From positions 1 through 64,000 of the forward strand of contig JAPUER010000069.1 of the NCBI GenBank assembly GCA_027492485.1: 64,000 nucleotides of DNA, given 5' to 3'. The position numbers and the translations under genes were made by a program. This stretch comes from Betaproteobacteria bacterium (lineage in GTDB: Bacteria; Pseudomonadota; Gammaproteobacteria; Burkholderiales; Casimicrobiaceae). The notes below the pieces were generated by a model. The model did not search any database, was not told the DNA's origin, and saw only the letters and a program-made list of their open reading frames with translations. Below are positions 59,349 to 61,109 of this stretch, piece by piece (within the stretch, counting starts at the first letter, position 1; each line of letters starts with the position of its first letter).

Positions 59349-61109
59349 ATGCTAAAGTCATTAACCATGCAATGCGACGGCACAACCGGCAAATTGCACG
59401 GTTCGCGTACTCCCTCGCACAGTCATCCCTTTGTCAGGAAAGCAAGCAATGACGTTCACACACACACACACACACACACACACACACACACACGCGCGCG
59501 GCGCCGTAGCGCTGCCCTCGCGCTGGCCGCTTGCATGAGTTTCGGCGCTCTGGCCGCCGCACCCATCGGCAAACCACCTGCCGGCTACCCCGAATACGTC
59601 GCCCCGCCCAAGCAACAGCGCATCTTGATCGATGGTCTGGTGCCCTACGAGCGTGCTGCCAAACCCTTCACCGACGCCGAGGGCCGCGTGCGGGTGATTG
59701 TGGACTTCATGGACGGCGCCAAAGACCGCTATCTCGACGCCGCGCGCAACGCGATCGAAGCGTTCGACCCCAAGCGTGATCGGCATCACCCGCAGGCGCT
59801 GTTGCTGCTCGACGAGAAATCGCGGCAATACGGCATCAAGCCGCAGTACCGCAGCAACGAGCAGGGCCAGCAGGAACGAACCGGCATCACCACCTGGGTG
59901 GGCATGAGTATCAGCGGCTACCTCACCGAAAAGCAGATCGACGCGCTGCGCCGCGATGAAGACGTGCGGCTGATCAGCGAGGATCGGGTGGGCCGCTTCT
60001 CGCAGAGCGAGCCACTGTGGACCGATAGCTCGGTCGACGGCGAAATGGTCGACTGGGGATACCAGGCCGTGAACGGCAAACAGGCGCCGGGCAACACGGG
60101 GCGAATCGTCTGGATCATTGACAGCGGAGTCGCGTATCACAGCGACCTCGGCTCGGTGACCAGCCGTTACAACGTTGCCAGCGGCGCCGGCGCGAACGGC
60201 TACGTTCCTGGCGTAGGCTGTTACGCGCACGCCACTCATGTGGCAGGCATCGTTGGTGCCACTGCGAACAACGGGCAGGGACGGCGAGGCATTTACGCGG
60301 GGGTGGAAATGCGCTCCATCAATGGCGGCTCGGCGTACAACGATCAAATTCCACCGTACAAGCCCTGCGCCGCGGGCGAGGCGCTTACAGCCGATCACAT
60401 TGGAGTCGCGCTCGACTATGTGTTCTGGCAGTCGCTCGGCGGCAACCCGTGGAGCGCGAAGCCGAATGTCGTCAACATGTCGTTCAATGGCGGTTTGACC
60501 GGTTTCTCCAGCAATGGCGTCGCGCTCAGCAATCAGCAAAAGATGCAGGCACTGGCGACGCCGGGCTACCCCTTTGCCGGCACCGGACTGTGGTATCTCT
60601 ACACACCCGGAAATGTCGTCGTGCAATCGGCAGGAAATGACAATGGAGATTCGTGTGTAAACAACCTGATCACCGACTTCGACGGGGTCAACACCCTGCT
60701 CGCCTCGGCAGCGTACAAACCCGCCGCAAATGCAAGCGCGGACCCGTGGGACGGCGTGCTGGTGGTAGGTGCCATCAAGTCTAATGGCGATCGCCCCGCC
60801 CCATTTACTGGGCACCCGCCGACGGGCGGGGCGGATCCCGGATCAAACTATGGTAGTTGCGTTGACCTGTGGGCACCCGGCAACTCCATTTTTTCGACGT
60901 GGGGGCTCGGAACGTTTAACACCAATGCGGTTGACCAGTACAGTGGTGGTATCTATCTGTCCGGTACTTCAATGGCGGCGCCGCACGTTGCGGCGGCGGC
61001 GGCTTACTTCATCGATGCGTACGGATTGACGACGCCTGCTGCGGTTGAGCAAACGCTTCGTGCAAACTCGACCTTAGTGTCTGGCCGCAACATGGTGTGG
61101 ATGCCATGA
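59349..61109 (+). CDS. Secreted subtilisin-like serine protease (S8) with CA-tract in its start region
   Basis: 586 residues in the frame open in this copy. The S8 triad is visible: D258 in WIIDSGVAYHSDL, H294 in AHATHVAGIVGA and S541 in LSGTSMAAPHVA. A propeptide-like region (residues about 75-230) includes RVIVDFMDGAKDRYLDAARNA. A signal sequence (RARRRSAALALAACMSFGALAAAP) comes right after an HT repeat encoded by a CA dinucleotide tract. The ATG at 59449 has the best ribosome-binding site (AGGA, 9-base spacing) but is out of frame here; the open frame reaches back to 59349 or 59367 with weak initiation signals. Followed by a coupled partner gene (ATGA). Confidence 0.88.
   Translation: MLKSLTMQCDGTTGKLHGSRTPSHSHPFVRKASNDVHTHTHTHTHTHTRARRRSAALALAACMSFGALAAAPIGKPPAGYPEYVAPPKQQRILIDGLVPYERAAKPFTDAEGRVRVIVDFMDGAKDRYLDAARNAIEAFDPKRDRHHPQALLLLDEKSRQYGIKPQYRSNEQGQQERTGITTWVGMSISGYLTEKQIDALRRDEDVRLISEDRVGRFSQSEPLWTDSSVDGEMVDWGYQAVNGKQAPGNTGRIVWIIDSGVAYHSDLGSVTSRYNVASGAGANGYVPGVGCYAHATHVAGIVGATANNGQGRRGIYAGVEMRSINGGSAYNDQIPPYKPCAAGEALTADHIGVALDYVFWQSLGGNPWSAKPNVVNMSFNGGLTGFSSNGVALSNQQKMQALATPGYPFAGTGLWYLYTPGNVVVQSAGNDNGDSCVNNLITDFDGVNTLLASAAYKPAANASADPWDGVLVVGAIKSNGDRPAPFTGHPPTGGADPGSNYGSCVDLWAPGNSIFSTWGLGTFNTNAVDQYSGGIYLSGTSMAAPHVAAAAAYFIDAYGLTTPAAVEQTLRANSTLVSGRNMVWMP
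59436..59451 (+). promoter_or_regulatory. Shine-Dalgarno site and ATG out of frame with the protease
   Basis: AGGA at 59436-59439, 9 bases before ATG 59449. From this ATG the present sequence reads MTF, then THTH..., and stops at TGA 59536-59538. Removing one CA unit, or adding two, would join it to the signal peptide and protease frame; adding one unit gives a stop at 59507. This is the expected arrangement of a phase-variable gene. Confidence 0.7.
59457..59493. repeat. (CA)18.5 dinucleotide tract in the subtilase start region
   Basis: 37 uninterrupted bases of CA repeat, translated as HTHTHT in the protease frame, just before the positively charged part of the signal peptide. Such long pure dinucleotide tracts are rare in GC-rich bacterial genes and are prone to slipped-strand mispairing. 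Tract length may also be miscounted by sequencing. Confidence 0.95.

Follow-up and report, generated by a model that had tools for sequence, protein, structure and literature searches.

The window analysed here, a stretch of 64,000 nucleotides from a genome labelled Betaproteobacteria bacterium, carries a gene for a secreted-type subtilase with a long CA repeat in its signal-peptide region. Two DUF5648 genes follow it. Just upstream, on the opposite strand, 56613-58952 holds a gene that we take, from its sequence features, to be TonB-dependent-receptor-like. The features of the locus are as follows.

59349..59361, forward strand: ATGCTAAAGTCAT, a copy of the upstream element [AT]TG[AC][CT]ANNGTCAT; it holds ATG 59349
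59436..59439, forward strand: AGGA, Shine-Dalgarno-like, serving the 59449 start
59449..59538, forward strand: start ATG and 29-codon frame in the present copy (the OFF product), with the stop at 59536-59538
59457..59493, forward strand: (CA)18.5 tract, the proposed length switch, with alternating GC directly 3' of it
59493..59558, forward strand: remainder of the signal peptide, read in the protease frame (translation RARRRSAALALAACMSFGALAA; signal peptide judged by eye)
59493..61109, forward strand: S8 subtilase frame behind the tract (Pfam PF00082, E 3.9e-24, 85.9 bits against a cut-off of 21.8)
61106..62305, forward strand: DUF5648 protein, first copy (the listed ORF starts at GTG 61097)
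62309..63472, forward strand: DUF5648 protein, second copy, its C-terminal half closely similar to that of the first by eye

From 5' to 3', AGGA at 59436 is followed by ATG at 59449-59451, the CA run, the alternating GC and then the signal peptide in the protease frame. Re-reading the sequence, we found this arrangement just as the sequence-only reading had described it, with the AGGA/ATG pair and a pure short-unit tract at 59457-59493, within the 5' coding part and ahead of the signal peptide. The run comprises 18.5 CA units at 100% match, and the window contains no N bases. A 14-base CA pattern has 12 overlapping matches in the window versus 0 in 100 shuffles. Moreover, the assembly (4.12 Mb, 98.92% complete) has no other run of at least nine CA units; about 6e-5 such runs are expected in it from assumed base frequencies. 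The same reading had placed ATG 59449 outside the protease frame and had held that only one in three tract lengths would be ON from this start. Both points hold: the ATG opens 29 codons that end at the stop at 59536-59538, and the third frame is also closed by a stop soon 3' of the tract, so that tract length decides whether this start is joined to the enzyme. The protease frame, for its part, runs open from about 59337 across the tract (ORF 59349-61109). A Shine-Dalgarno match was sought at its in-frame upstream starts 59349, 59367 and TTG 59394 and none was found; 59449 has AGGA.

The protein encoded behind the tract belongs to peptidase family S8, with PF00082 matching above its curated cut-off. 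The catalytic residues Asp (60120-60122), His (60237-60239) and Ser (60969-60971) lie in the contexts DSG, HxTHVAG and GTSMAAP, all present in the window protein, a predicted protease. Behind the tract, the frame is intact over 527 open codons that include the triad. A Pfam scan of the 586-aa product returned nothing besides Peptidase_S8 at E up to 0.001. The protease stop and the ATG of the first DUF5648 gene share bases (ATGA, 61106-61109), and the DUF5648 gene would therefore probably switch in part with the protease, by translational coupling. A DUF5648 gene lies 3' of the subtilase in six of nine homologous loci by Pfam (L025, L026, L027, L030, L032 and L016), and a seventh, L033, has a similar DUF5648-like gene by eye. 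The gene after the subtilase encodes a beta-propeller protein in L034 and a protein without a family in L035. As a separate observation, the C-terminal halves of the tandem DUF5648 genes in the window (61106-63472) are nearly identical by eye, which suggests a recent duplication or gene conversion.

We then compared the subtilase with its homologues. By sequence search (E 1e-20) the gene is present in 10 of 100 near genomes, and by profile at E 1e-60 in 8 of 17 genus genomes and 10 of 64 family genomes, own genome included in each case. An alignment-based search of genome contigs gave 101 stretches that encode a subtilase relative, of which 79 loci were kept; a protein-only search of the same kind of contigs gave no subtilase relatives. 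The near homologues come mostly from metagenome bins labelled Betaproteobacteria, Burkholderiales or Proteobacteria, and also include Gallionella-type records, one Candidatus Nitrotoga and one Comamonas record. We took the 230 nt that precede the conserved propeptide motif as the 5' region, and scored as tracts C or G runs of at least 8, A or T runs of at least 9 and dinucleotides of at least 5 units.

A simple repeat stands in the 5' region of 10 of 16 near homologues, window included, and its kind varies between CA, TC, C and G: in place of the (CA)18.5 of the window, the relatives show (TC)5, (TC)8, C8, C10, G8 or G11. The tract lies behind the signal peptide in L027 and L034, and in or before it in the other tract loci. 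Across the 16 near loci, which leave out L028, L015, L021, L111 and L113 because their contigs end before the N-terminus, we counted 10 tracts per 3,680 nt of 5' region versus 3 per 85,873 nt elsewhere (p 3.5e-12), so that tracts outside the 5' region are about 80-fold less frequent. Distant subtilases have none (0 of 62 versus 10 of 16, Fisher 6.4e-9). This distant set derives from 66 loci (L038-L103), of which L087 was counted as near and 3 of the remaining 65 lack a 5' end; the span searched ran from 60 nt beyond the upstream in-frame stop to the match. A narrower control of hand-picked distant loci, with the 5' region placed by extrapolation, likewise gave 0 of 29. Tracts thus recur in the 5' region of the near homologues beyond chance. 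Because the repeat kinds differ between homologues, descent of a single tract cannot explain the pattern; repeated gain or replacement of tracts in one region can explain the unlike repeats as we read them. That repeat kinds replace each other in the same region suggests that what has been kept is the switch, not the sequence.

What state are these genes in? The tract-linked start is out of the enzyme frame in 8 of the 10 near tract loci (the window, L025, L026, L016, L032, L024, L034 and L035) and in frame, or ON, in L030 and L027. Among the six tract-less near homologues, five have an in-frame start with a Shine-Dalgarno match (L033, L087, L029, L031 and L037) and one, L036, has no in-frame start. 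An in-frame start, tract-linked or any, is thus lacking in 8 of 10 loci with a tract versus 1 of 6 without (Fisher 0.035, a weaker value than the 0.015 obtained when the frame test was limited to four of the six tract-less loci). The broken start of L036, which has no tract, means that a broken start is no proof of a switch. We searched for a recognisable Shine-Dalgarno sequence at the tract-linked starts and found none in L024, L035, L030 and L202, the last of these a further S8 protease described below.

These comparisons support the earlier proposal that the protease is switched ON and OFF by slipped-strand mispairing. We consider it very probable that the CA tract would act as a contingency-locus switch, with ATG 59449 as the start, slippage setting the frame and the assembled copy OFF. 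Translation would begin at ATG 59449, and slipped-strand mispairing would add or remove CA units. Of the three length classes, only one would then join this start to the signal peptide and subtilase, which would leave the assembled copy OFF. Whatever the frame, the CA repeat would encode nothing but His-Thr units, placed in the N-terminal part of a signal peptide that should be cleaved off, and the mature enzyme should therefore be the same at any tract length. Bet-hedging in the production of secreted proteins that are exposed or costly may be the benefit. The genome sets that we compared hold one genome per species; the proposal predicts that tract length would change within a species and that expression would change with it.

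The most serious competitor, though we think it unlikely, is that RNA polymerase or ribosome slippage yields a fixed fraction of product, in which case the tract would tune a low level of expression and would not switch it. Homopolymer runs, which several relatives carry, are known sites of transcriptional slippage. However, dinucleotide tracts such as that of the window are poorer slippage sites than homopolymers, and the obvious property common to such unlike repeats is instability of length in the DNA.

The same design appears elsewhere in the genus, in a second family of secreted proteins and in five more secreted-type genes. The sole place in the own genome with at least six TC units falls within the signal peptide of a secreted-type protein of 344 residues, for which no Pfam match was found. 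The family of about 340 residues (L190-L199) has 10 members found, in 6 of 17 genus genomes; the one member scanned gave no Pfam match. Six of these 10 members carry 5' tracts, of which L190, L192 and L193 are ON and L191, L196 and L197 are OFF; L194, L195, L198 and L199 lack a tract. Across the genus, at least six TC units occur in six places, and five of these are at the start of a secreted-type reading frame: the (TC)8 subtilase of genome G005, L202 (another S8 protease), L203, L223 and the own-genome gene. The sixth place (G002 C12, six units) lies away from a gene start. Additional tract genes are L118 (G002; C11, OFF), L240 (G012; G10, ON) and L236 (G014), where a C/G tract lies in a promoter spacer and which we count as a clear switch.

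Counting poly-C or poly-G runs is not a usable measure of switches, and we rejected it: the own genome holds 70 runs of C9 or more, and those inspected mostly look like debris. Nineteen of the 21 places inspected among these 70 have the look of assembly debris: they are mixed G/C runs, and many fall within or close to TGTAGGAGCGG-type palindromes, next to N gaps or at the ends of contigs. The exceptions are L168 and L151, each a single tract in an apparent coding stretch. We therefore dropped own-genome C/G runs from the argument. Among 25 places listed with C/G runs of at least 10 in other genomes, where G006, G015, G003 and G009 are under-sampled and the long runs in G013:C49 and one contig-end run in G016 are left out, five are clear switches (L118, the G010 subtilase, the G008 subtilase, L236 and L240) and one is doubtful (L244). 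In L237 and L241 the run is just ahead of the start codon of a gene without an evident signal peptide, and the remaining listed runs fall between genes, within other reading frames, next to N gaps or at the ends of contigs. Because debris and non-switch runs are common, the claim rests on the position of the tracts and on the homologues, not on tract counts.

Three side observations concern these runs. In the own genome (L146-L185), mixed poly-G/poly-C stretches and N gaps often interrupt the repeat palindromes of the TGTAGGAGCGG type; this assembly artefact would inflate the counts of any automatic survey of homopolymers. At L168 (own genome, C35:78028) a C9/G9 run lies inside a short Gly-rich reading frame that might be a small peptide gene. 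Around position 1965 of L233 (G011 C53), a G14 run lies within a long Gly-rich reading frame, where a change in length would alter or cut the C-terminal part.

Upstream of the tracts we found a shared element. The motif [AT]TG[AC][CT]ANNGTCAT occurs at most 300 nt before the tract in 9 of 23 tract genes (L240 is without it), although these nine matches are partly by construction, the motif having been picked by eye and tuned on some of the tract genes. Seven of the nine lie 77-128 nt from the tract and two lie 15 nt from it. The 144,499 nt of tract loci, the whole window included, hold no other match on the same strand, and the distant loci gave 2 matches in 714,322 nt on both strands. A multiple alignment of the upstream regions aligned little. 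ATGCTANNGTCAT has two sites in the own genome, each of them at a tract gene, and the reversed control has one. Independent support comes from the genus-wide search, in which TTGACAWTGTCAT has 11 sites versus 0 for the reversed control. ATGCTAWWGTCAT has 10 sites versus 2 for its control, and 3 of the 10 stand before recognised tract genes. By eye, a signal-peptide-like frame start lies behind 8 of the 11 TTGACAWTGTCAT sites; the exceptions are L251, L252 and L256, of which L251 and L252 are homologous to each other and presumably encode YggS-like products. In three of the eight, a poly-G run lies between TTGACA and a -10-like hexamer: L253 of the own genome (G7), L248 (G10) and L249 (G9). A poly-G run in the TTGACA/-10 spacer would be a spacer-type form of transcriptional phase variation. 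A sigma-70 promoter prediction at 59000-59520 of the window found none.

Two observations on this element stand apart from the window gene. The TTGACAWTGTCAT element (L246-L256 and L257-L265) is palindrome-like and looks like the site of a putative regulator of secreted proteins in the genus. At L253 (1500-1530; own genome C3:61798), TTGACATTGTCAT is followed by the G7 run and then by the -10-like TAGATT ahead of a secreted-type gene, which makes a second, transcriptional switch in the own genome possible.

The element bears on a second alternative, that the protease is made from an in-frame upstream start, 59349 or 59367, and that the signal peptide simply tolerates the tract as a His-Thr insert. 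The open protease frame ahead of and through the tract would allow this, but a Shine-Dalgarno match is missing at both starts. The first three bases of the element are ATG 59349, which argues against the use of this ATG as a start, and the element also stands upstream of tract genes that have no such start; ATG 59349 is probably not a start. Moreover, besides the window, all seven OFF near homologues lack an enzyme-frame ATG ahead of the tract. Two of the seven have another candidate codon in the enzyme frame just before or at the tract (TTG in L026, GTG in L034), and in L032, L024 and L035 the protease frame holds no ATG, GTG or TTG before its first matched residues. Finally, a change in unit number breaks the frame from 59349 and 59367 too, so the gene would stay length-dependent. 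We rate this alternative slightly below RNA or ribosome slippage. The sequence-only reading had left a choice between an OFF copy and use of these upstream starts; of the two, the use of 59349 is weakened here.

Could the tract genes simply be pseudogenes or assembly frameshifts, permanently off? We find this very improbable. It would fit the preponderance of OFF copies: among all 21 genes with coding tracts, 15 are out of frame and six are ON (L030, L027, L190, L192, L193 and L240), as read from assemblies, mostly metagenome bins, in which tract length may err by one unit. These counts are, at the same time, close to the 2:1 expected from random lengths (p 0.82). The least certain OFF call is L202, because an in-frame upstream ATG is present there too. 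The poly-G debris elsewhere in the own assembly, the stops inside the enzyme frame of L026, which may be decaying, and the startless, tract-less L036 would also suit permanent loss. However, the triad and an open enzyme frame are kept in 9 of the 10 near tract loci, L026 being the exception, and in 7 of the 8 OFF subtilases the frame is open over at least 500 codons and the triad is complete. A reversible switch leaves just this, an undamaged frame behind a start that is out of register. ON copies exist as well, and the single-contig genome G005 has one OFF and one ON tract gene. We rejected a functional His-Thr peptide, since the relatives encode Ser-Leu, Pro or Gly there.

Beyond the contingency-locus switch at the window gene, we tentatively suggest a wider reading that may have somewhat less than an even chance of being right, a coordinated phase-variable secretome. 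The palindrome-like element (TTGACA-N-TGTCAT and variants) would jointly control many genes, and private signal-peptide repeats or poly-G -35/-10 spacers would switch each of them at random; repeat kinds would turn over fast while the switch is kept. The set would comprise the subtilases with their DUF5648 partner, the Pfam-less second family and others. On this reading, the population would share out among its cells either the work or the danger of secreting proteins that are costly or exposed.

Why would such bacteria switch secreted proteins at all? Repeat-based phase variation has been described mostly from host-adapted pathogens. If a genus known from environmental bins does switch its secreted enzymes, phages, predators or conflict over public goods become candidates for the selecting force, and not immune evasion, and the tract loci would offer a concrete gene set for measuring such selection. 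A literature search of titles and abstract openings, with few subscription journals, found no report of such switching in this host group or gene set.

Three known systems allow a comparison. In oipA of Helicobacter pylori, CT repeats lie in the signal-peptide part and the number of units sets the frame, ON or OFF, although repeat count alone is reported to be a poor predictor of the ON/OFF state (PMC10564699). The window tract is alike in being a dinucleotide repeat in the signal-peptide part of its gene. Unlike oipA, which encodes an outer-membrane protein of a gastric pathogen, the window gene encodes a secreted protease in a Burkholderiales-type genus that is known from genome bins, and its homologues differ in the kind of repeat.

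NalP of Neisseria meningitidis is subtilisin-like. It is described as a phase-variable secreted protease, an autotransporter, with a poly-C tract that is ON at 7, 10 or 13 C (PMC3723659). The window gene resembles nalP in encoding a secreted protease with a proposed length switch. Unlike the autotransporter NalP, the window protein matches only Peptidase_S8 (Pfam, E up to 0.001), and no NalP-type C-terminal autotransporter barrel was found in the scan.

The opa genes of Neisseria carry CTCTT repeats in the leader-peptide region. As in opa, several members of one family here each have their own tract in the signal peptide. Unlike opa, which keeps a single kind of pentamer throughout, CA, TC, C and G tracts replace each other here. 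Altogether, the type of switch is already known from oipA and nalP; what is unusual here is the host group, the gene set and the turnover of repeat kinds.
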